NCBI GenBank assembly: GCA_903789665.1
Contig: CAIFEX010000022.1
Location: 1 to 60,245, forward strand
From: an uncultured Clostridium sp.
GTDB lineage: Bacteria; Bacillota; Clostridia; Clostridiales; Clostridiaceae
Length of the DNA: 60,245 bases
Direction of reading: 5' to 3'
The notes under the pieces were generated by a model that worked only from the letters and a program-made list of their open reading frames with translations, did not search any database and was not told the DNA's origin. How positions within the stretch are numbered: the first letter of the stretch is position 1; the number at the start of each line of letters is the position of its first letter. Shown piece after piece: positions 41,042 to 59,788 of the stretch. A program made the position numbers and the translations under genes.

Positions 41042-41987
41042 TTACTTATTTTTTTCTGAATCTCTCTTGAGAAAATCCAGCAGGACTTCTGTGCGTTCTC
41101 TTTGTTTCCTTTTTAAAAGTTCAGGAGTCCAGTTGTAAAATCCTTTCCCGCTCTTGCTTCCCAGATCACCGGAATCAACTTTGCTCTGCATAAGTTTGGA
41201 AGGTTCCTTATAATCACACAGATCTTTAAACAAATAGGAAGATATATTATTGAATATGTCAAGTCCTCCCAAATCCGCACTGCACAGCGGACCTGTAACA
41301 GGCAGCCGCCTTCCATGTCCATATTCCATGGCTTTATCAACTTCTTCAGGTTTGGCCCATCCCTGTTCGACTATATACAGTGCTTCCCTGAGAAGTGCCA
41401 GCTGAAGCCGGTTTCCTATAAACCCCGGACATTCCTTTTCCATACGCACTCCTTTTTTGTCTATGAATTCCACCCATTTCATGGTTTCATCCATGACATC
41501 GGAGGAAGTTTTACTGCCGGGAACAACCTCCACCAGTGGAATAAAGCTGCGGAGGATTCCAGAAATGTGCAACTACCACTCTCTCGGGACGTTTTGTATA
41601 TTTTGCTATATCCGTGGGACTGAGTCCGGATGTATTAGATGCCAGAATAACTTTTTTTTCACAAATATCATCCAGCTGTTTAAATATATTCTGCTTCAGT
41701 TTCAGATTCTCAGCTACGCACTCCACTACAATATCAGCATTTTCCGCAGCTTCCCCGAGAGTTTTTACTCCCTTTACCCTATTTAGTATATATTTGCATT
41801 CACTGTCTGACAACTCTCCTGTATCCTCCAAAAGTTTCAAGCTGGATTTTATCCTGTTAAATCCCCTCTCGAGGCTTGCATCGGTTCTCCCATACATGGT
41901 AACATTCAGCCCGGCCTTTGCAGAAAGCAGCGCTATACCGTGACCCATAGTGCCGGTCCCCAGCACGGCCGCATTTTTTATATTCAT
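41042..41987 (-). pseudogene. 3-Hydroxyacyl-CoA dehydrogenase, disrupted by a single frameshift
   Basis: The N-terminal part (41511-41987, AAVLGTGTMGHGIALLSAKAG and ILASNTSGLSPTDIAKY) and the C-terminal part (41042-41572, IPLVEVVPGSKTS and CPGFIGNRLQLALLREA) are in different frames. They would join as HFWNPPQL-IPLVEVV if one T were removed from CTTTATT (three A at 41543-41545 on the plus strand). The intact protein would be about 314 residues, a NAD-dependent 3-hydroxyacyl-CoA dehydrogenase. It is either a recent frameshift or a sequencing error. Its stop is 4 bases from the hydrolase gene, tail to tail. Confidence 0.85.
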
Positions 41988-43230: not shown

Positions 43231-44430
43231 TTATTTCATTGACTTGATAATGCTGTCGGCAAGTTCTCCCATCAAACTGGCCTCGTCTTCCTTCATACTG
43301 GAGCTCAAGGACATATCCTTATCCAGAACAGTCATCTCTTTCATTCCATCCAGGAATTTACGCATTAACCTTCCCGACTGGGGAGCCCATGAACCATTTT
43401 CTATAAGGGCAAAGGTACGTTTTTGAAGATTCAGTGCTTTCATATGTTCCAGATAATCGAGCATTGGCGGATAAATTTTCAGATTATAGGTTACACATGC
43501 AAGAACTATGTGGCTGTATTTGAATGTCTCAGAAATCAAATAGGACACGTGAGTTTTTGAAACATCATACATAACTACATTTTTCATTCCCTTTTCCACC
43601 AGCCTGATAGCCAGATTGTGGGCGGCAGATTCTGTATTGCCGTACATTGAAGCATAAACTATCATGACACCTTTCTCTTCAGGTTCATAACGGCTCCATT
43701 TATCATACTTGTCTAGAAAATATCCCAGGTTGCTGCGCCATACCGGTCCGTGCAGAGGACAGATAGTCTTTATATCAAGCTTGCTGGCTTTCTTCAAAAG
43801 TGCCTGGACATGAGGTCCATATTTCCCCACAATATTTGTGTAATACCTTCTGGCATCGTCAATCCAATCCCTGTCAAAGTCTACCTCATCGTTGAACAGC
43901 TGGCCGTTTAATTTGCCAAAGCTGCCAAAGGCATCGGCAGAAAACAGCACTCCATTTGTAGTGTCGTAGGTAACCATGACTTCCGGCCAATGTACCATAG
44001 GTGCAGTTACAAATGCCACTTTATGTTTTCCGAAGGATCTGGTATCCCCTTCTTTAACTACCTCCACTTTTCCGTCCATGTCAAATCCAAATTGGTTGAG
44101 GAACATGAAAGCTTTTTTAGTACACAATATCTTTGCCTTTGGATAACGCAGGAGGATCTCCTGAATGCAGGCCGCATGGTCCGGTTCAACATGGTTTATC
44201 ACCATATAATCCAAAGTTCTGCCTTTGAGAACTGCCTTTAAATTTTCGAGAAACTGGCGGCAAACTGCCCAGTCTACCGTATCAAATAGCACAGTCTTCT
44301 CATCCAAAAGTACATAAGAGTTATAGGAAACTCCCCTTGGAATTGGATGGATATTTTCAAATAGGGCAAGGCGATTATCATTTGCCCCAACCCAATAAAG
44401 ATCTTCATTTATTTTTCTAACACAATGCAT
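43231..44430 (-). CDS. fprA: Flavodiiron protein (FprA), copy 1
   Basis: A 399-residue A-type flavoprotein. The metallo-beta-lactamase domain carries the diiron ligands in NHVEPDHAA, MVHWPEVMV, FSADAFGSFG and CPLHGPVW. The C-terminal flavodoxin domain (from about residue 250) has MIVYASMYGNTESAA. Clostridial FprA proteins reduce O2 to water, or NO to N2O, with electrons from rubredoxin. It is next to the acyl-CoA dehydrogenase-ETF-rubredoxin fusion gene (34 bases away) on the same strand, and a second copy is on the other side. Confidence 0.95.
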   Translation of the reverse strand: MHCVRKINEDLYWVGANDNRLALFENIHPIPRGVSYNSYVLLDEKTVLFDTVDWAVCRQFLENLKAVLKGRTLDYMVINHVEPDHAACIQEILLRYPKAKILCTKKAFMFLNQFGFDMDGKVEVVKEGDTRSFGKHKVAFVTAPMVHWPEVMVTYDTTNGVLFSADAFGSFGKLNGQLFNDEVDFDRDWIDDARRYYTNIVGKYGPHVQALLKKASKLDIKTICPLHGPVWRSNLGYFLDKYDKWSRYEPEEKGVMIVYASMYGNTESAAHNLAIRLVEKGMKNVVMYDVSKTHVSYLISETFKYSHIVLACVTYNLKIYPPMLDYLEHMKALNLQKRTFALIENGSWAPQSGRLMRKFLDGMKEMTVLDKDMSLSSSMKEDEASLMGELADSIIKSMK

Positions 44431-44463
44431 GTAACTAATCCTCCTTATCTATATTTATAATAA

Positions 44464-46377
44464 TCATACATCAGCATCTATAAATCCATCTTTCTCTTGA
44501 CCGCAAACAGGACACGTCCATTCTTTCGGTATATCTTTAAAAAGTGTACCTGAAGCTATATCACCTTCAGGATCTCCTACACCCGGATCATATTCATAAC
44601 CACATCCATTGCAGACATAATGTTTCCAATTTGGAACAACCTTCTTGGGAACTGCCCTCTTCATCTTCTTCATTGGCGGTGCCTCCTTCTTAGGTTGGCC
44701 ATTATCCAGGGCAGCAGTGAGCAGCGGCACAATTTCCACTAAATCGCCAACTATACCGTAATCGGCATTTTTAAAGATCTTGGCATTGGGATCTATATTT
44801 ATGGCAACAATTGTAGAAGCATCAACTATGCCTTTAAGATGCTGAATTGCACCTGAAATACCAATAGCCACATACAGATTACCCTTGAATTTCTGACCGG
44901 ACATACCAACATAGCGGTTCAGCGGTAAATATTTGAGGGTTTCAGCTACCGGACGGGAGGAACCTATGGCCGCACCTGCCTGTACTGCCAGATCTTTTAT
45001 AAGCTTCATGTTCTCCCTTTTGCCTACGCCCATTCCTATACTCACTACTCTTTCAGCTTTATTTATAGGAGTGTCCATTGGAATTCCAACTGTAAAATCA
45101 TATCCGTCTTCTTTGAGTGCCTTTACAAGTGAATCAACTTTTTCTTTTGAAGTTCCCTTGTTGAAGATGATATTTTTACGATATCCCGTAGCCGGCAGGC
45201 GCTTAGAAGTTTTTGCCGCAGTTTTATTTTTAGGAGCTTTGCCGACAATGTGGGAGGCGATAACCACACGCTGAATTTCATTGGTTCCCTCATATATGGT
45301 GCATATTTTGGCATCCCTATAGGCACGTTCAACTTCCATGCCCTTCATGTAACCGCTTCCTCCAAATATCTGAAGGGCGTCATTTACAATTTCAAGACAC
45401 GTATCAGAAGCATACTGCTTTGCCATAGCAGCCTCCATGTTGTAATCCTCGTGGTTCTGCTTCAACTCCGCTGCACTGTAGACCAGAAATCTGGAGGCTC
45501 TGAGCTTTGTGGCCATATCGGCTAACTTAAAGGAAATAATCTGCTGGCGGCAGATTGGTTTTCCAAACTGTACCCTCTCCTTTGAATACGCCAGGGCATT
45601 TTCATAAGCTCCCTGCGCTATGCCAAGAGCCTGAGCGGCAATGCCAATACGTCCTCCGTCCAAAGTGGACATAGCAATCTTGAAACCTTCTCCTTCTTTA
45701 CCAAGGAGGTTTTCCCTAGGTACCTTCACGTTGTTGAAATTAAGCTCTGCAGTTGCCGAAGACCGGATTCCCATTTTATCATAGTGTTTCCCGGTACTAA
45801 AACCTTCCCAGCCCTTTTCCACAATAAATGCACTTATGCCGTGAGTGCCTATATTCGGGGTAGTAACTGCAAAAACTACATAGACATCCGCTTTCCCCGC
45901 ATTTGTTATAAATATCTTTTCTCCGTTTAGGACATAGTGATCGCCCTCCAGCACGGCAGTAGTCTCCGTACCGGCGGCATCACTTCCGGCATTTTCTTCA
46001 GTTAAGCCAAATGCCCCAATTTTTTCACCTTTTGCCATGGGGATTAAATATTTTTGCTTCTGCTTTTCAGTACCAAAGGCGGCAATCGGATATGTTCCCA
46101 AAGATGTATGTGCAGAAAGAATTACGCCAACTCCACCATCAACTCTCGATAATTCTTCAACAGCTATTGCATAACTGATCACATCCAGACCGGCTCCGCC
46201 GTACTCCCTGGGATATGGTATGCCCATAACTCCCATATCCGCCAGTTTATGAACAATTTCATCCGGAAATTTGTTCTCCTGATCCAGCATAAATGCAATA
46301 GGTTTGACTTCTTCTTCAGCAAATTTTCTAATTTTCATTCTTAAGTTTTCGTGTTGCTCTGTAGTTTTAAAAAACAT
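44464..46377 (-). CDS. Acyl-CoA dehydrogenase fused to ETF-alpha and rubredoxin
   Basis: A 637-residue triple fusion. Residues about 1-380 are an acyl-CoA dehydrogenase ([17 protein letters not shown]; the catalytic glutamate in [10 protein letters not shown] near 361). Residues about 395-565 match the ETF-alpha C-terminal FAD domain ([62 protein letters not shown]). Residues about 583-637 are a rubredoxin with C-x2-C pairs ([21 protein letters not shown]). All active or binding motifs look intact. No ETF-beta gene is adjacent. Flanked by two fprA copies, it could pass electrons from an acyl-CoA to a flavodiiron O2/NO reductase (inference). Confidence 0.93.
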
Positions 46378-46634
46378 TTACGTCCCTCCCCTTTACTAAA
46401 TATAATGTTCCCTTAATATCAATTTAAAAACCTACATGATAATTATAGCTCTCATTAATTTTCCCCACAATCTCAGTTCTAAGCTGTTTTCCCCACAAAT
46501 CTCCAATGAAACGTAAATAAATTTTATTCTGCCTGTTTGCCATCTTATGTCTTTCAATTCCTCTTATTTTTAGAGTTTTAATATTATTTAAAAAAAATTA
46601 TTTATTAATAATTATTCTGTAAATGTAGCATGAA
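46378..46634. other. Intergenic region with a duplicated motif
   Basis: 257 bases between the fusion gene and fprA2 with no gene seen. It must hold the promoter of the fusion-fprA1 unit. TTTTCCCCACAA occurs twice, at 46459-46470 and 46487-46498, 28 bp apart in the same direction, and may be a regulatory site. Confidence 0.5.
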
Positions 46635-47834
46635 TCATTTAGCTGACTGGATGATACTGCCGGCAAGTTCCTTCATCGAACTGTTGTCTTCCTCTTTCAT
46701 GCTGGATCTCAAGGATATATCTTTGTCCAGAACAGTCATATCCTTCATTTCACCTAAAAATTCACGCATCAATTTTCCAGACTGGGGAGCCCATGAACCA
46801 TTTTCTATAAGGGCAAAGGTACGTTTTTGAAGATTCAGTGCTTTCATATGCTCCAGATAATCGAGCATTGGCGGATAAATCTTCATATTATAAGTCACAC
46901 TTGCAAGGACTATGTGGCTGTATTTGAATGTCTCAGAAATCAAATAGGACACGTGGGTTTTTGAAACATCATACATAAACACATTTTTCATCCCACCTTC
47001 CACCAGTCTTATAGCCAGATTGTGGGCGGCAGACTCCGTATCGCCGTACATTGAAGCATAAACTATCATGACACCTTTTTTCTCCGGTTCATAACGGCTC
47101 CACCTATCATATTTTTCAAAATAATATTCCAGGTTGCTGCGCCAAACCGGCCCATGCAGCGGACAAATAACCTTGACATTCAATTTATCGAGCTTCTTCA
47201 AAAGCAATTGAACGTTAAAACCATATTTTCCTATAATATTTGCATAGTATCTCCTTGAATCATCAAGCCAGTTCCTGTCAAAGTCCACTTCATCGTTAAA
47301 GAGTCTTCCGCCCAATGCACCAAAAGTGCCAAAAGCATCTGCAGAAAACAGCACGTTATTTGTAGTGTCATAGGTAACCATGACTTCCGGCCAATGTACC
47401 ATAGGTGCAGTTACAAACATCACTTTATGTTTTCCAAACGACTTTGTATCACCTTCTTTAACCACTTCTATCTTTTCATTTATATCAAAACCAAACTGCT
47501 TCAAAAATACAGCAGCTTTTTTAGTGCACAGGATCCTCACCTCCGGATAGCGGAGAATAATTTCTTTAATACAAGCCGCATGGTCCGGTTCAACATGGTT
47601 GAGTACCATATAATCCAAAGTTCTGCCTTTGAGAACTGCCTTTAAATTTTCGAGAAACTGGTGGCAAACTGCCCAGTCCACCGTATCAAATAGCACAGTT
47701 TTATCATCTAAAAGTACATAAGAGTTATATGAAATTCCCCTTGGAAGCGGATGAATATTTTCAAACAAAGTAAGACGATTGTCGCTTCCACCAATCCAAT
47801 AAACATCTTCAACTACTTTTCTAACACAATACAT
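46635..47834 (-). CDS. fprA: Flavodiiron protein (FprA), copy 2
   Basis: A 399-residue paralogue of the copy at 43231-44430, the same length and very similar throughout. Diiron ligands are in NHVEPDHAA, MVHWPEVMV, FSADAFGTFG and CPLHGPVW; the flavodoxin part begins MIVYASMYGDTESAA. Long stretches of DNA near the end are identical in the two copies, including the segments at 46785-46844 and 43381-43440. This suggests duplication with gene conversion. It is probably transcribed separately from the fusion gene. Confidence 0.95.
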   Translation of the reverse strand: MYCVRKVVEDVYWIGGSDNRLTLFENIHPLPRGISYNSYVLLDDKTVLFDTVDWAVCHQFLENLKAVLKGRTLDYMVLNHVEPDHAACIKEIILRYPEVRILCTKKAAVFLKQFGFDINEKIEVVKEGDTKSFGKHKVMFVTAPMVHWPEVMVTYDTTNNVLFSADAFGTFGALGGRLFNDEVDFDRNWLDDSRRYYANIIGKYGFNVQLLLKKLDKLNVKVICPLHGPVWRSNLEYYFEKYDRWSRYEPEKKGVMIVYASMYGDTESAAHNLAIRLVEGGMKNVFMYDVSKTHVSYLISETFKYSHIVLASVTYNMKIYPPMLDYLEHMKALNLQKRTFALIENGSWAPQSGKLMREFLGEMKDMTVLDKDISLRSSMKEEDNSSMKELAGSIIQSAK

Positions 47835-52154: not shown

Positions 52155-55100
52155 CTAAGTAAGTCTAGTAAGACTCTGGGGATCATTGTCCCTGAAAAAT
52201 GCCTCTTTCATTTCCATTTCCTTCGTCATAATCTGATTTACACCGTCACTGGCTTCTCTTAGCTTACAGCTGTATACAATTGGAAAATAGGTTCTTATGA
52301 ATTTTCCTTCCGAATGTGCTGTAAGAGCTATTATTTGAAATCCAAGCTGTTCTGCAATAAAAAATACCGGATCCAATACATGTTCACTGGATGCCTTGCC
52401 AAAAGGATTATCCATTATAACTACCCTGTTCCTTTTACAATCTGAGGTCACCCTGATTCTTTTCTCTACCAGATAATTCAGTATACCCAAAAACAAAGTC
52501 ATGTTCTTGCTCCACTTTTCTCCGCCGGACCACTGATTTGATGTTTCCCATGAAAAAGGCAGACTGCTCATCTTCCCATCATTGGTCACTTTCCTGCATT
52601 TTACCTTTATGGTATTCTGCTTCATCACATACTGCAGCAGCTGTTTTGACTGAAGCCATTTTTCAATGGACTTCCTGACTTTTTCCACATCTTCCTTGCC
52701 ATTTTCATCCTTAAACCGGTCCCCCTGAAGCTGATTCAGCATCCAGTCAATATATTCAGCCAGTCTTTCCCTGCCTTCTTTTTCATTCCATTCAGGTACT
52801 GTAAATAAAAATACCTCTTTCCACTTTCCATCAATTTTTATTCTGGTACTTCTGGGAAGCTGCCTGAGTTCATCTGCTATTGTCTTCAGATAGGAATGCA
52901 GCTGATTTATAAACTGCTGAATTTCTCTATCATGATCTCTCATGTCATTTTCTGTGATTTCAACTATGCGCATAATCCTTTCACTCATTTTATTCTGCCA
53001 TCCTAAAATATCTTCAAAATTCCTGTTGTATTCTATGCCTGTCACAGACATCTCCTTAAGTTTTACATCCAATATGTCATTTTGGCAGAACTCAATAAAA
53101 TTCTCCTTTTGCATCCTTACCCTGCTGGCTTTTTTATCCAGATTCCCGGTGATTTCATTTAGATTTTTCTCCATTTCTTTCAGAACTTCCATCCTCTTAT
53201 AGGGAAATCTTTCCTTCATATCTTCAGAAATAGTCGTTTCTCCTGTTTCCTCTGCAGAAGATGGATATTTTGCATTTATAACTTTGATTTCCTGCAGAGC
53301 ACTTTCTATACTTATTTTCTGTTTTTCAAGGGACTCCTGCTCTGCTGTGAGATAATCTTTTCTTCTATTTATATTTTCTCCTTCTCTGGATAAAACCTCA
53401 GGCACTCTCTCCAGTGGAATGTGAAAAGATATCACATTCTCATATTCACTTTTAAAGTCCCTTTCCCTGATTTCATACTCATTTTTGCTATTTTGGAATA
53501 TAAGTTCAGCTCTATCATATTTTTTCTTCAAATCCTTCAGAGGTGATCTCATGTTTCTTATTTCAACTGAAAGTTTATTTATATCTTCATCCCCATGGTA
53601 AATGGGCTCTTCTTTTTCATCTATGGGAAATTCCAGTTCGTTTTTAAACACTTCAAAGTCGGACTCTAGAGAATTTTTCAATTCAACTGCATTTTTCATT
53701 TCCTGTTCAAGCAAATCTCTTCCCTTTTGCTTTTTGGCAAGCATATCTTTCAGGGCATTTCTCTCATCTTCCAGCACTTCTACACTCACCGAAGTATATT
53801 TAGGATCAGATTCAAGCACCTCTGCATAAAGTTTTTCACCTTCCAAATTTTTAAGAACACTGCAGATCTCATTAAAATTACCTTCCAGATCCTCCTGTAA
53901 TTTTGAAGATATGGTCTTATCCCCATTGAGCTTTGAAAATTCCCTGTCATTTTCCAGAATATCTTCTTCTATTTCAGCCGCATCCTCTTCATATTTTTGC
54001 TTCTTCTCTCTATTACTTATATACTTCTTCGACTTTATTATTTTATTTTCCAATACATTCTGTTCACCGCTTAAATCCAGTATACTGCCGTTGAGTTCCT
54101 TTACCTTCTCATCGATATCGTCAATTCTTTTCTCATCAGAGGATATATTTCCTGCCGTCACAGATATATTGTATTTGACACTCTTTTGATCTCTTTGTAT
54201 ATCCATATACCGTTCATAGGGGTATACTTCATAAAACTTTTTCACATCCACGAGCAGCCCACCGCATATTTTAACTTCATTTTCTTTTTCAATTCGAATT
54301 TTAGTGGATTCATCGGCCTTTGCCGCAATTCTTCTCTTCCAGTTTTCAAAATTTTCTTGGGAAATATTTTCCCCCCAGCTGGGCGGGAAAAATATATTTT
54401 CCTCTCCAGCTGCATACTCGTTTTCAATCTTGAATCTTGCTTCATTTTCATCCATCACTACAACAGGATGGGAAAGCTGACTGCAGCTATCAGCTATCTT
54501 TTTCTTAAGCTTATCTATTTCTGCATTGGAAGTTATTATGGATATAGTCCAATAAGGATATAAATTTTCGCCGCCGTTCAAAGCTCTTTGAAAATACTGG
54601 GTTCCGCTTTCTATATAATTGAATCCATTTCTCCATGCTCTAACCCATTTTTCTATAACAGGATCTGCAGTATAATACTCACTGTCACTGTAATCATCCA
54701 GCCATCTATGAGCTATTCTCTCTTTAATTATCAGCCTTTCCTTTTCTTCAGAGAAACTTACAGCTCTATTTTCAAGTTGCTGCAGTATAGTCTCTTGTTT
54801 TGAGTAGAGTGAATCAAAGCTGAACCAGTTTCCCCTGAATTCTTTAACTCTTTTCAGCAAAGCATTATGCTTTTTCCCATGGACTTCCATATAGTTCTCA
54901 ATCCTGCTTTCTTCTCTTTTGAGTTCCTCCAGCTCCTCTCTCTTCATTTTAATATCCGCTCTCAGATCCTCTTTTTCCCCTTCAATAGATTTAATCTCTT
55001 TATTACACTTAAAAATATTGTCTTCAAGGACATCTATACGGTACTGCCATTTAGCTGCCTCTTCTTCAACACTTTCCTGTTCAGGATTGCTCAGTATTTC

Positions 55101-56543
55101 TCTTTCAATGGATTTCATATCTTTCCCAAGATATTCAATTTTAGCTTCCAGCCCGCTTTTCTCTCCAATCAGTTCTTTACCTTTACCCTGAACTTTTGAA
55201 ATCCTGTTTTCAATCTGTTTAATCTTATTTTCAGCATTTTTAAGATGATTTTCGGCTAAAGATCTTTCATACCCCAGTTTTTTCTCCTGTTTTACATAAT
55301 ATCCTCTAAGGCAGCAGGAATTATTCTGAATTTTTTCAACGATATCAGCTGCTTTTCTATCCCTGTTGAATTCCTCAAGCTGGCTTTGTAAAAGTTTTAT
55401 TTTCCCATTTTGAACCTTGATATGGCTTTTATATTTTAAAAATCGGATCCTTTCATAGGTTTTCTGCCTTCTATTTCTTATACTCAGCATTCCATTATAA
55501 CTGTCAGAAATCTTTTCAAAATTTCTCCTGCCTTCTTCCACCTTCATTTTCAAAACTTGAAGATTGTAGGAACTCTTCTTCTGCTTCCAGCTGTCTTCTT
55601 CCCTATTTAAACCTTCCAACATGGTACCATTTTTATCGATTTTATTTTTATTTTCAATCTGTTCTTTTTTTGCAAAGTCGTATACAGCCTTCACACTCTT
55701 CTTCATCTCACCTAATTTCAAATTTACATTATGGTAGTCCCTGCAAACTTCTACATATCTGTCTATTTCAGCCTCAATGACCCTGCTTTCCTCTATCCTC
55801 GCCTTCAATTGCTTATATTTTTTAAAATGCTGTATCTGCTTTTCAAAAGTCTCAGCAAAATCCTTTGTTCCATCACCAGCTATAGCTTCTTCAACAGTTG
55901 GTATCAAAAGATTGTCCACCAGCTGTCCCGTGCTTCTGCAGTTATTGAAAAATTCCTCTACTCCACCTTCTGCACTATTTATCAGTGCAATTTTTCTCCA
56001 TTCCCAAGGAACTATTTTAAAATTTTTCTCTATATATTCCTGATATTCTTTTATGGTTGAAAATTCATGGGCATTTATCTTATTTCGGCTCATATTCAAA
56101 TAGTATTCATTCATTTCCTCTTTTTCGGCAGATCTCTTATTTCCACTGCTGCTCTGTCTTACAAATGGCAGTTTCTCTATGGAATTTTCATCATTTTCTT
56201 CATATTCATAGACATACTTCAGGGAACTCACCGATCCCCTGTTCATAAACAGAGTCACAGCTGTAAGTCCATATCTTCTGGGCTTTTCACTCAATATCCA
56301 CTCAATTGCTATATGTGCAGAAGTGTTTTCAAGCATCAGAGTGTCTTTTATCTTCCTGTTTGCAACTTCCGCATGGGGCAGCACAGCTTGAATAGCTGTT
56401 TGCACAAATACGGTCTTCCCTCCCCCGTTTGGAATCAAAAGGGCTCCATTGTGTCCATCAAACTGGAATATGTCGTCATTGAACCTTTTGGCACCATTTT
56501 CATAGATAACATTCGTAAATCTTATTTTAGAAATAGACGGCAT
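52155..56543 (-). CDS. jetC: Wadjet JetC, SMC-like ATPase
   Basis: A 1462-residue SMC/MukB-type ATPase. The P-loop is LLIPNGGGKTVFVQ near residues 33-46. Long coiled coils fill the middle (about 290-600 and 800-1250). The ABC signature is WSGGEK near 1336, and Walker B is VVIMDNPFGKAS near 1374-1385. The residue after the Walker B aspartate is Asn, where classical SMC proteins have Glu. JetC extrudes DNA loops so that JetD can cut small circular plasmids. Its ATG overlaps the jetB stop by one base. The size and neighbours fit Wadjet type III. Confidence 0.9.
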   Translation of the reverse strand: MPSISKIRFTNVIYENGAKRFNDDIFQFDGHNGALLIPNGGGKTVFVQTAIQAVLPHAEVANRKIKDTLMLENTSAHIAIEWILSEKPRRYGLTAVTLFMNRGSVSSLKYVYEYEENDENSIEKLPFVRQSSSGNKRSAEKEEMNEYYLNMSRNKINAHEFSTIKEYQEYIEKNFKIVPWEWRKIALINSAEGGVEEFFNNCRSTGQLVDNLLIPTVEEAIAGDGTKDFAETFEKQIQHFKKYKQLKARIEESRVIEAEIDRYVEVCRDYHNVNLKLGEMKKSVKAVYDFAKKEQIENKNKIDKNGTMLEGLNREEDSWKQKKSSYNLQVLKMKVEEGRRNFEKISDSYNGMLSIRNRRQKTYERIRFLKYKSHIKVQNGKIKLLQSQLEEFNRDRKAADIVEKIQNNSCCLRGYYVKQEKKLGYERSLAENHLKNAENKIKQIENRISKVQGKGKELIGEKSGLEAKIEYLGKDMKSIEREILSNPEQESVEEEAAKWQYRIDVLEDNIFKCNKEIKSIEGEKEDLRADIKMKREELEELKREESRIENYMEVHGKKHNALLKRVKEFRGNWFSFDSLYSKQETILQQLENRAVSFSEEKERLIIKERIAHRWLDDYSDSEYYTADPVIEKWVRAWRNGFNYIESGTQYFQRALNGGENLYPYWTISIITSNAEIDKLKKKIADSCSQLSHPVVVMDENEARFKIENEYAAGEENIFFPPSWGENISQENFENWKRRIAAKADESTKIRIEKENEVKICGGLLVDVKKFYEVYPYERYMDIQRDQKSVKYNISVTAGNISSDEKRIDDIDEKVKELNGSILDLSGEQNVLENKIIKSKKYISNREKKQKYEEDAAEIEEDILENDREFSKLNGDKTISSKLQEDLEGNFNEICSVLKNLEGEKLYAEVLESDPKYTSVSVEVLEDERNALKDMLAKKQKGRDLLEQEMKNAVELKNSLESDFEVFKNELEFPIDEKEEPIYHGDEDINKLSVEIRNMRSPLKDLKKKYDRAELIFQNSKNEYEIRERDFKSEYENVISFHIPLERVPEVLSREGENINRRKDYLTAEQESLEKQKISIESALQEIKVINAKYPSSAEETGETTISEDMKERFPYKRMEVLKEMEKNLNEITGNLDKKASRVRMQKENFIEFCQNDILDVKLKEMSVTGIEYNRNFEDILGWQNKMSERIMRIVEITENDMRDHDREIQQFINQLHSYLKTIADELRQLPRSTRIKIDGKWKEVFLFTVPEWNEKEGRERLAEYIDWMLNQLQGDRFKDENGKEDVEKVRKSIEKWLQSKQLLQYVMKQNTIKVKCRKVTNDGKMSSLPFSWETSNQWSGGEKWSKNMTLFLGILNYLVEKRIRVTSDCKRNRVVIMDNPFGKASSEHVLDPVFFIAEQLGFQIIALTAHSEGKFIRTYFPIVYSCKLREASDGVNQIMTKEMEMKEAFFRDNDPQSLTRLT

Positions 56544-57280
56544 TATTTTTCTTCCTTTCTATTATCAATATTATACATAAAATCAAGTATGCCCCTGTTG
56601 TAGTCATATTCCATATAGTACTTCTGAATTATGGTCTTTGCCTTTTCCGTAAGTGTCAGTTCCTCATTTCCAATATCTTTTATAAGATTCTGGGACTCCA
56701 GGAAACGCTTTACTGTATTTAAAAAGCCCTTTCTACTTGCAGTCCTGGCATCCTGAACTTTTGCAGTTTCCCTTATTTCATCTATATCTGTCCACTTTTT
56801 TACAACAGAGGACCAGTTATAATCATATTTACTGTCGAGCTCTTTCAGCTTTTTATCCCCTTGTTCCTTCAGCGTCGAAATCCTCTCATTCAAACTGGAA
56901 AGCCAGTCATTTAAAGATATGAAATCTCTGGTGGGTTCTATTGTCTGATAACTGTCATAAAATTCTCCAAACAGAACTATTATTGATACGTACATCATGT
57001 ATAAATCCACATTTACTGCCTTTGCAGGAAGATAGGTTTTTTTAATATAATCATTTGAAACGTGGAATACTGAATCTTTTAAAACAGGTATTAGATATAT
57101 ATAATCTCCAGATAAAAATATGCTGCAGTCAACCTGTTTTGCAAACTGATCCACCAGCGACCTTATGCTGTCATCGGACATGTAAAGATGAAGCTGCTCT
57201 TTTTCTCCATATCCCTGCATAGCTAGCACTGAATACAGCCTAAATGCCTGCATTACCTGTTCATTACTGTAAAAAACCAT
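56543..57280 (-). CDS. jetB: Wadjet JetB, kleisin-partner (DUF6063-like)
   Basis: A 245-residue protein between JetA and JetC. In Wadjet systems JetB is a MukE/KITE-like winged-helix partner. It begins MVFYSNEQVMQAFRLYSVLAMQGYG and has the helix pattern DDSIRSLVDQFAKQVDCSIFLSGDYIYLIPVL. The size matches type III (DUF6063-like) rather than the longer JetB of type II. It ends one base into jetC. Confidence 0.8.
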   Translation of the reverse strand: MVFYSNEQVMQAFRLYSVLAMQGYGEKEQLHLYMSDDSIRSLVDQFAKQVDCSIFLSGDYIYLIPVLKDSVFHVSNDYIKKTYLPAKAVNVDLYMMYVSIIVLFGEFYDSYQTIEPTRDFISLNDWLSSLNERISTLKEQGDKKLKELDSKYDYNWSSVVKKWTDIDEIRETAKVQDARTASRKGFLNTVKRFLESQNLIKDIGNEELTLTEKAKTIIQKYYMEYDYNRGILDFMYNIDNRKEEK

Positions 57281-57284
57281 GTTT

Positions 57285-58793
57285 TCACTCCAATCTCAAA
57301 TTCATATCTTTTATGGTAAATCTCTTTGTAACCTCCAGCACTCCTCCTGTTTCCTTTACACAAATGCAGTCTGACTTCTGTGCAAATAAACCAAAAGATT
57401 TTCCAAACAGACTCTTTCCGCTGTTTTCATAATTTCCCAAATTCACAGGAGATTTTTGATGAAGCAAGATCCAGTAGTCGTAAAAGCAGCGTCTGTCAAG
57501 TATATTTTCATATCCACTTCTTTTCATATATACTACCACTTGTTTTAGATCTATATCCTTTCTATCTCCTAAAGCTCCCAATACTATAGAGGTTATCTCC
57601 CTGAAATTATTTGCCTGAATCTCAATATCCTCCTCTACCTCTTCCTTATCGGATACGGACAAAAAATCCTGAAATTTTTTAAGACTGCTCCTGTTTTCTA
57701 TCCTCTGTCTAAAAAAAACCGCCAGGGGCGACCATCCTTTATATCTTTTCAAAAACATGAAGGGCTCTATGAGCATTCTGGAAGCATGCAGGGGCAGTGG
57801 AGATGAAAACAATCTGCCAGTTATCTCCTGGTCAAAATTAAAGGAATCTATTCCCGAATAATACAGTGCCTCCTGGGCTGATTCAAGTGCCCTGGTCTTT
57901 AAAATTATACTTTCCTTCAAAAGCAGCCTGTGCTCATAATTCACCTGTCCCAATTCCCTGTCTACTTTAATTATGAGCTCATAGGCTTTTCTATCTTTTT
58001 CATGGACTATCTCGTTTCCCATTTTCTCTTTGGTCTCTTTTACAAAAGACTGCAGTTCGCTGAATTCCTCATCTTCCCGCTGCAGTCTTATATTGATATC
58101 TTCAATTATATTTTTATATCTCTCATAGATCTGATTTGAAATTATATTTCTGCTTACCTCATGCTTGATTCTCATTATTCTATCACGAAGGTTTCTCACA
58201 CCAAGACTCATTTCATCAATCTGCCTGAGTGCTCCTACAAATTCTCCTTTCTCAAGCTGCTTTCTTAAAACAAGCTGGTTTATGGAGAGCTGAAATTCAT
58301 TGAAATACTCCTTTGTAGCAAATACAAGTTCCAATCCCTGCTCATCAAGGGTATAATATTGGGTATTTTTTTCAAAATTCGCCCTTTCAGCCTTTATTAT
58401 AGAATACTGAACGGTTTCCTCTTTTCCCGTTTCCCAATTGTAAAACTTTCTGGAATTTCTTTTCCCATTGGGCGGTCTAAAAATTTCTATTATATTCCTG
58501 GCAATCTTCTCAAAATCCTCATAGTCAAGATCCAGCCTTCCCTGATTAATCTTCTGAAAAAATTCAGCCAATTCCCTTATTCCCGTCTTTTTATTTCTCA
58601 TGAGCATATTTTCAAAAAAGAATAATAGAGCCAGAAACCCCAAATTAAAGTAGTCAATAGGCTTATTACTTCTATCTCTTGAATTTTTATTAGACAGTTT
58701 GTAGAGTGGATCAAACAGTGCAAGCCTCTGAATTCTCTCTCTATAGTTTTCAGTAATACTTTTTATATCTATGTCCAACAATCTTCCCTCCAT
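57285..58793 (-). CDS. jetA: Wadjet JetA, kleisin-like subunit
   Basis: A 502-residue MukF/kleisin-like subunit. The N-terminal region is helical (FLALLFFFENMLMRNKKTGIRELAEFF, YTLDEQGLELVFATKEYFNEFQLSINQLVLRKQLEKGEF), with coiled-coil segments between about 170 and 300. It starts inside the end of jetD (25-base overlap) and ends 4 bases before jetB, so the four genes form a tight operon. Confidence 0.82.
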   Translation of the reverse strand: MEGRLLDIDIKSITENYRERIQRLALFDPLYKLSNKNSRDRSNKPIDYFNLGFLALLFFFENMLMRNKKTGIRELAEFFQKINQGRLDLDYEDFEKIARNIIEIFRPPNGKRNSRKFYNWETGKEETVQYSIIKAERANFEKNTQYYTLDEQGLELVFATKEYFNEFQLSINQLVLRKQLEKGEFVGALRQIDEMSLGVRNLRDRIMRIKHEVSRNIISNQIYERYKNIIEDINIRLQREDEEFSELQSFVKETKEKMGNEIVHEKDRKAYELIIKVDRELGQVNYEHRLLLKESIILKTRALESAQEALYYSGIDSFNFDQEITGRLFSSPLPLHASRMLIEPFMFLKRYKGWSPLAVFFRQRIENRSSLKKFQDFLSVSDKEEVEEDIEIQANNFREITSIVLGALGDRKDIDLKQVVVYMKRSGYENILDRRCFYDYWILLHQKSPVNLGNYENSGKSLFGKSFGLFAQKSDCICVKETGGVLEVTKRFTIKDMNLRLE

Positions 58794-59788
58794 ATACTTT
58801 TAAGTTCCTCTTTTCCCAAAGCTTCCTGGGGCAAATACTTTCCCGAATGCAGTATATCCAAAATCCTTCGGCTTTCATCCCTGCTGAAAAATTTCAAGAA
58901 GTTGTCAAGGGCACTGTGATTTTCAAGCTGATTTTCCTTTCCCATGCTGCTGGGCTTTTTGATGAGTTCACTATAAAATTTCACTGCAACAGAGGCTTGC
59001 CTCTTTCCATTCAAGGAATTCCATATGGATATGCCTTCATTATCCAGGTCTCCAAAATAATACAGTTTGTGTTTTCCAGTTACACCAAGCTGTCTTTCCA
59101 AAAGTCCTATATTGGAAACTATTTTCCATCCAGAGCCAAATATGAGGGTTGTAAAATCAGTATCACAGAGTACATTCAAAAGCGCCATGAAAGTGGCCTT
59201 ATTTTCCACAATCAAATGTCGGTATTTAGCCTGCGGCCGTGAAAGTTTCTTTGGATTCACTGCCATCATAAGAGGATCACAATTGTTTATTATCTTCAAC
59301 TTATTCCAAAGTCCAATCTTATCAAGAAGTTTTCTGCCGGATTTTTCATCAATCCACTTTTCGTCCCCTACGAGATAAAAGGATCTTTCCTGGGAAGTTG
59401 CATATTCTTTTGGAAGTCCTTCTTGGCATATATATTCATTAATCTTATCGATATAGGGTTTGTCCCTCTTCAATTCTTCAAAACTGCCGGCAAAATATTT
59501 TTGCAGGTCGATTTCACTGCTTATGCTCAAACTGTAATTCTGCAGGAAATCAATGTAGTCTTTTTTCAATTCATATTTATTGATGCCGAATTTATAGGGA
59601 AGTGGAATATCCTTTCCGTTATTTATTTCCGGCTTTTTTTCCACAAGTACATTATCTTTCACCAGCTCCATTATACAGCCGGCAAATTCGTCATATTTCA
59701 TATTTCCCGGCACCAAGCTCTCCAATTCTCCCAGAGTTATAGTGGCTCTCTTGTAGGATTTGAGATAGGAAATTATATCATCTTTCAT
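58769..59788 (-). CDS. jetD: Wadjet JetD, Toprim-type nuclease
   Basis: A 339-residue protein with a C-terminal Toprim-like domain. The Toprim glutamate is in IVENKATF near residue 193, and the DxD motif is FGDLDNEG near 245-252. JetD is the nuclease that cleaves plasmid DNA extruded by JetABC. The N-terminal half is a helical, winged-helix-like part of unknown role. It is the first gene here (order D-A-B-C). Confidence 0.88.
   Translation of the reverse strand: MKDDIISYLKSYKRATITLGELESLVPGNMKYDEFAGCIMELVKDNVLVEKKPEINNGKDIPLPYKFGINKYELKKDYIDFLQNYSLSISSEIDLQKYFAGSFEELKRDKPYIDKINEYICQEGLPKEYATSQERSFYLVGDEKWIDEKSGRKLLDKIGLWNKLKIINNCDPLMMAVNPKKLSRPQAKYRHLIVENKATFMALLNVLCDTDFTTLIFGSGWKIVSNIGLLERQLGVTGKHKLYYFGDLDNEGISIWNSLNGKRQASVAVKFYSELIKKPSSMGKENQLENHSALDNFLKFFSRDESRRILDILHSGKYLPQEALGKEELKSIWREDCWT

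Follow-up and report, generated by a model that had tools for sequence, protein, structure and literature searches.

A clostridial fusion of acyl-CoA dehydrogenase, ETF-alpha FAD domain and rubredoxin between two flavodiiron proteins as a probable butyryl-CoA oxygen oxidoreductase

The closest described system to the locus considered here is the butyryl-CoA oxygen oxidoreductase (BOOR) of Fusobacterium nucleatum, FN1423-FN1424, credited to Bystrom and Wolthers (2024, Biochemistry 63:2352) in a review and two later papers (PMC12288474, PMC12630350, PMC13404960). As described in the review and repeated in one of the later papers, a fusion of butyryl-CoA dehydrogenase (Bcd), the C-terminus of EtfA and rubredoxin (BCR) joins a flavodiiron protein (FDP) in an alpha4-beta4 complex that couples butyryl-CoA oxidation with the reduction of O2 to water and has no NO reductase activity; a 2026 preprint among the three finds the same two genes in gut Clostridia, next to an Rrf2-family regulator. 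Here we describe a 60,245-nucleotide stretch of DNA from an uncultured Clostridium sp. (contig CAIFEX010000022.1; ‘the window’ is this whole stretch), the minus strand of which carries three open reading frames (ORFs) in the order FDP (46635-47834), fusion (44464-46377) and FDP (43231-44430). Judging by domain order, neighbouring gene and conserved residues, we consider it highly probable (about 0.88) that the fusion and the downstream FDP form a further member of BOOR. The features are as follows (ETF, electron-transferring flavoprotein).

43231-44430, minus strand: flavodiiron protein (FDP/FprA) downstream of the fusion and its expected partner in BOOR; 399 amino acids, starting 33 nt past the fusion
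44464-46377, minus strand: BCR-type fusion of acyl-CoA dehydrogenase, ETF-alpha FAD domain and rubredoxin; 637 amino acids
45247-46362, minus strand: acyl-CoA dehydrogenase domain, residues 6-377 (Pfam N, M and C domains; nearest solved chain 5ol2_C)
44707-45081, minus strand: ETF-alpha FAD domain, residues 433-557 (Pfam core 438-517, E 1e-25)
44482-44619, minus strand: rubredoxin domain, residues 587-632 (Pfam E 7e-18; C589, C592, C622 and C625)
46378-46634, intergenic: gap of 257 nt from the upstream FDP to the fusion
46635-47834, minus strand: upstream duplicate FDP; 399 amino acids, iron ligands kept, on a longer branch and altered in 7 of 115 conserved BOOR-FDP columns

A preliminary description of this DNA had read a single protein with acyl-CoA dehydrogenase, ETF-alpha FAD and rubredoxin (Rd) domains, and FprA genes on both sides of it. 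Pfam bears this out: all three domains fall on the 637-residue ORF, and both flanking ORFs pair an ODP metallo-lactamase domain with a flavodoxin domain and have no Rd domain. The fusion thus matches BOOR in its domain order (Bcd, C-terminal ETF-alpha and rubredoxin in one protein) and, as in the F. nucleatum pair, an FDP adjoins it; against two Fusobacterium records (L090 and L128; L- and G-numbers are our labels for loci and genomes) identity is 74-75% for the fusion and 64-67% for the FDP. The catalytic Glu, the ETF FAD site, the four Rd cysteines and the six FDP iron ligands are all kept in the window, whilst the second, upstream FDP is a point of difference. We take E363 of the fusion to be the catalytic Glu, R475, S493, G494, H513, N527 and D539 to be the FAD-site residues, and H80, E82, D84, H147, D166 and H227 (downstream-FDP numbering, and present in both window copies) to be the six ligands of the diiron site. 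E363 and the six FAD-site residues are kept in 60/60 aligned long fusions, the iron ligands in 69/69 aligned FDPs, and the four cysteines in 58 of the 60 fusions, the remaining two being those of Anaerococcus; of the 115 columns with a conservation of 95% or more across 53 BOOR FDPs, the downstream FDP departs from just one.

Certain points weigh against this assignment. The comparison was made with the two Fusobacterium records and not with F. nucleatum itself; the reaction, the complex and the order of electron transfer would be carried over from the F. nucleatum orthologue to a locus at which gene content, residues, conservation, linkage and duplication are what we observe directly; the chain length of the substrate is likewise presumed; and the rubredoxin step is in doubt across the family, given relatives that lack either the iron ligands or the Rd domain altogether.

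Linkage of the two genes is close to absolute. In a class sample of 393 genomes (E <= 1e-150), 36 matched, 35 with the full fusion and one (G012) with a shorter form alone; among 13 genomes of the window's genus (E <= 1e-170), five have the full fusion, five a short form and three no match. A search for FDPs in 40 genomes (the 36 class matches plus G001, G002, G009 and G010) placed one directly downstream on the same strand in all 38 that have a full fusion; G010 and G012, with the short form only, carry a BOOR-type FDP elsewhere in the genome, and G003, G004 and G011, also with the short form, gave no FDP at E <= 1e-60. At L033 (4690-5886) and L034 (5319-6515), BOOR-type FDPs stand with no long fusion adjoining and a short fusion elsewhere, possibly as a split system. 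In a collection of named organisms, drawn from the best 80 of 593 relatives, 14 ETF-alpha-like loci without a fusion (L129-L142) were dropped and 66 fusion loci, some partial, were retained (L063-L128; neighbours counted by tblastn). A same-strand FDP lies downstream in 65 of these 66, at gaps of up to about 0.9 kb, and at the sole remaining locus the contig stops 431 nt past the fusion. These loci include Fusobacterium, Brachyspira and a Synergistaceae metagenome-assembled genome, the last possibly misbinned since it groups with Clostridia. As the gene pair recurs under four phylum labels (Bacillota, Fusobacteriota, Spirochaetota and Synergistota), it is not a product of chance. Wherever the contig allowed a look, in the 38 genomes and the 66 named loci, no long fusion was without an FDP. 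On the question of whether fprA always flanks the fusion, the downstream side has it in these surveys, and both sides together in only 4/187 genomes of the family; fusions with no FDP beside them, which would have spoken against the earlier reading, do occur, though among the loci surveyed in the Rd-less form and not in the long one.

The best match of the fusion in the PDB is a dehydrogenase chain, 5ol2_C (472 bits, residues 8-376), presumably that of the bifurcating Bcd-EtfAB complex; the nearest solved relatives of this domain are acyl-CoA/butyryl-CoA dehydrogenases, and no chain among the best 60 of 208 matched spans the whole fusion. With bifurcating Bcd-EtfAB the window protein has the dehydrogenase and ETF-alpha FAD domains in common, but it is covalently fused, carries an extra rubredoxin and is without EtfA domain I and EtfB. 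Because the FAD domain is all that it carries of ETF-alpha, the fusion is not an ETF, and with both domain I and an EtfB partner absent from the window it falls outside EtfAB. In tblastn searches at E <= 0.1 with the genome's own EtfA and EtfB (identified by eye), EtfB had no match in the window and EtfA matched only the fusion, so the earlier statement that no ETF-beta gene lies nearby stands; the suggested bypass of the normal ETF also fits, a separate etfB-etfA pair being located on another contig, outside the locus.

The two FDPs share their domains and six diiron ligands with class A flavodiiron proteins/FprA (1ycf, 1e5d); the donor for those is NAD(P)H via rubredoxin reductase, whereas here, by analogy, it would be the acyl-CoA-oxidising fusion. 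Members of the FDP family can reduce NO, and the best NCBIfam matches of both window copies are flavorubredoxin models, both of which would favour NO detoxification over O2 removal as the role of the system. However, the downstream FDP scores just 233 bits against 635 and 219 against 711, below the equivalog cut-off for NorV, the anaerobic NO reductase flavorubredoxin, and NorV requires a C-terminal rubredoxin of its own, which the 399-residue window proteins are without. Since the F. nucleatum complex reportedly has no NO reductase activity, we regard an NO-directed role as very unlikely.

By analogy with that complex, we propose that the dehydrogenase domain, via its own FAD, would convert butyryl-CoA to crotonyl-CoA, that the fused ETF-alpha domain would next receive the electrons on its FAD, that the rubredoxin iron would then hand them to the FMN and the diiron site in the FDP, and that the FDP would reduce O2 to water. 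The path drawn earlier for this locus, from acyl-CoA through FAD and rubredoxin to the FDP and O2, is essentially correct and already published for the F. nucleatum orthologue; its alternative ending in NO is unlikely. The cell's own crt-bcd-etfBA-hbd/Rnf system would keep up the supply of butyryl-CoA: crotonase, Bcd, EtfB, EtfA and HBD ORFs (names assigned by eye) lie in that order on another contig of this genome, and its RnfC scores above the cut-off.

Bcd acts as a reductase in clostridia, and the dehydrogenase domain of the fusion resembles Bcd, so that the fusion could be conceived of as a crotonyl-CoA reductase, with the reaction run backwards on electrons supplied by rubredoxin, and with FDPs that are unrelated stress genes; an Rd-less paralogue in an HBD/CoA-transferase cluster (L145, read by eye) would suit such a role. 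Against this stand the nearly perfect, co-directional linkage of FDP and fusion, the presence of Bcd-EtfBA in the genome already, and the butyryl-CoA donor and O2 acceptor reported for the orthologue; taken together, these make a reductase role most improbable.

FDPs on both sides of the fusion are the result of local duplication, a minor variant and not the rule. The window copies are 82% identical to each other, and no third match to the downstream FDP was found anywhere in the genome (E <= 0.001); in the region of the gap between the upstream copy and the fusion (46378-46634), promoter-like (15 vs 13.6) and terminator-like (4 vs 4.3) matches are about as frequent as in shuffled sequence. 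A co-directional FDP upstream of the fusion is absent from all 66 named loci, bearing in mind that 10 have <1.5 kb upstream and that L125 is partial; L087, L121 and G114 have a divergent upstream FDP, ~43% identical in the first two. A survey of the family at E <= 1e-140, a threshold that more diverged copies would escape, found a BOOR-type FDP in 84 of 187 genomes, six of them carrying two, and the FDP-fusion-FDP arrangement in four (G000, G002, G007 and G330). Of the other two, G453 (L234) has a fusion-FDP pair with a further FDP 1.5 kb downstream, and G492 (L235, L236) has two complete fusion-FDP pairs.

In the FDP tree, the upstream copies of G000, G002 and G007 form one clade (99/96) inside the genus, whilst that of G330 is placed elsewhere, in an unresolved set with its own downstream copy, so that duplication probably happened twice or more. 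Branches are longer for upstream than for downstream copies (0.18 vs 0.069 in G000; 0.44 vs 0.15 in G330), and upstream copies also have more changes in the 115 conserved columns (7, 5, 4 and 7 in G000, G002, G007 and G330, against one in each downstream copy). The window copies differ at dN 0.104 and dS 0.72 (non-synonymous and synonymous divergence), denoting purifying selection, and this dS, being below the 0.90-1.33 found between them and three copies in G002 and G007, hints at gene conversion. We suggest that the BOOR role probably stays with the downstream copy, and that the upstream FDP would be a lineage-specific duplicate, held under purifying selection as a second or altered partner.

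The strongest new point of the analysis concerns relatives in which the rubredoxin has lost its iron ligands, or is missing. Of 116 tabulated loci (including repeat fetches of some genomes), 99 have the four cysteines, 12 have no Rd domain and five have Asp-Ser-Ser-Ser in place of the cysteines: L115, L118 and L121, all named Anaerococcus, together with G312 and G114, which we assign to the same genus since G312 is identical to L115 and G114 is placed in the genus of G312. Among 31 Anaerococcus genomes, 29 have the long fusion, and in all 29 (L150-L178) the cysteines are replaced by Asp-Ser-Ser-Ser, as they also are at L115, L118, L121, L144 and L146; an FDP with its six iron ligands intact adjoins every one of the 29. 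Among the 130 genomes of the surrounding family, a long fusion is present in 58 more, and the 40 of these that were read, some overlapping other sets, all have four cysteines and an adjacent FDP, with no intermediate between the two forms among them. We found no report of an iron-free, cysteine-less, degenerate or pseudo-rubredoxin, or of the Anaerococcus change, in the open-licence literature, though one may have been published outside it, the 2024 BOOR paper included.

The iron-less domain scores 51-57 bits against Pfam Rubredoxin in 29/29 (50.5 in L115), over a cut-off of 23, and domain-based surveys would for that reason miss the loss of iron. Over 406 Anaerococcus pairs its mean non-synonymous and synonymous differences (pN 0.087, pS 0.546) indicate purifying selection, the values resembling those of the ETF domain (0.084 and 0.525) and exceeding those of the dehydrogenase (0.051 and 0.515); and as both TCN and AGY codons are used at two of the three Ser positions, it is serine itself that is retained. 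Positions that are at least 93% conserved across 102 further fusions yet altered throughout the 29 Anaerococcus proteins number 4/16 in the rubredoxin (the cysteines), 5/80 in the ETF part (residues 397-507) and 0/190 in the dehydrogenase (ETF vs dehydrogenase, Fisher p 0.002), in a test made after looking and covering a single clade. The ETF border at residue 397 takes in one of the changed sites, and other borders give 4/79 or 4/69 (p 0.007 or 0.005). In the Anaerococcus FDP, H307N alone meets a like criterion.

Fusions that end after the ETF domain, without any rubredoxin, were found at L019-L028, L127, L145, L179-L185 and L214-L218. At L127 and L217, probably one organism, an FDP lies beside the fusion; none adjoins it in the five short-form genomes of the window's genus, nor is there one within 12-15 kb at L145, L215, L216 and L218. 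Short fusions occur in 14/31 Anaerococcus genomes, 62-67% identical to the long one, and all seven inspected (six of the 14 and a partial one in G312) have an opposite-strand FDP, 42-44% identical, with an ORF between in L181. The five ETF changes of the long Anaerococcus fusions do not recur as a set in the short forms, of which L184 is also changed at one FAD-site residue. In a tree rooted on the genome's own Bcd, a single and long outgroup branch, the earliest branches are the short forms of L145/L216, the window's genus and L127/L215, and the short forms of Anaerococcus, L218 and L214 sit within the long ones; the tree calls for no fewer than four changes between having and not having a cysteine-bearing rubredoxin. 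Read most simply, this has the fusion of dehydrogenase and ETF arising first and the rubredoxin joining it afterwards, followed by losses or by another gain. As separate observations, the Rd-less fusions at L024, L025 and L027 adjoin Fur-like and DUF134-like ORFs (by eye), and L214 (1764-5663) has a short and a long fusion in tandem followed by an FDP, the fusion being duplicated here instead of the FDP.

Given these iron-less and Rd-less fusions, the rubredoxin iron may be dispensable in the family. One could go further and speculate that the iron is inessential, that the Anaerococcus rubredoxin is an iron-less docking module past which FAD reduces the FDP flavin directly, and that BOOR was built stepwise with rubredoxin added later; we hold this only tentatively, at somewhat under even odds. 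The corresponding proposal for the family at large, that rubredoxin serves mainly for docking, with electrons passing from the ETF-type FAD to the FDP FMN and the iron being an optional relay that Anaerococcus discarded, is possible, if a shade more doubtful. In its favour, the iron-less domain is maintained next to an FDP with intact ligands, some Rd-less fusions adjoin FDPs and some branch deepest, and the changes in Anaerococcus spare the dehydrogenase; FDPs reduced directly by F420H2 are also known, of which we take 6frm to be an example. On the other hand, this case is drawn from sequence; the Anaerococcus change, confined to one clade, counts as one event, with a post hoc site test; a stand-alone rubredoxin, encoded in a separate short frame in 31/31 Anaerococcus genomes (83-88 bits; four cysteines in the four read), could substitute; the window protein and every long fusion examined outside Anaerococcus keep four cysteines; several of the Rd-less fusions lack an adjoining FDP; and the Rd-less forms do not have the Anaerococcus ETF changes as a set.

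Elsewhere in the window, a 3-hydroxyacyl-CoA dehydrogenase at 41042-41987 (minus strand) is split over two overlapping frames, either as a frameshifted gene or through sequencing error, and four adjacent ORFs at 52155-59788 (minus strand) match the PADLOC models JetC3, JetB3, JetA3 and JetD3, making this, by its parts, a Wadjet type III defence system.

Finally, a recently described enzyme of butyrate producers that consumes O2 and saves energy gains through this locus a member from the Clostridium family in which the FDP is duplicated. The locus also suggests a part in oxygen defence for a gene that annotation would probably treat as a plain acyl-CoA dehydrogenase. The natural variants without iron ligands or without rubredoxin, in turn, make the role of rubredoxin in feeding FDPs directly testable.

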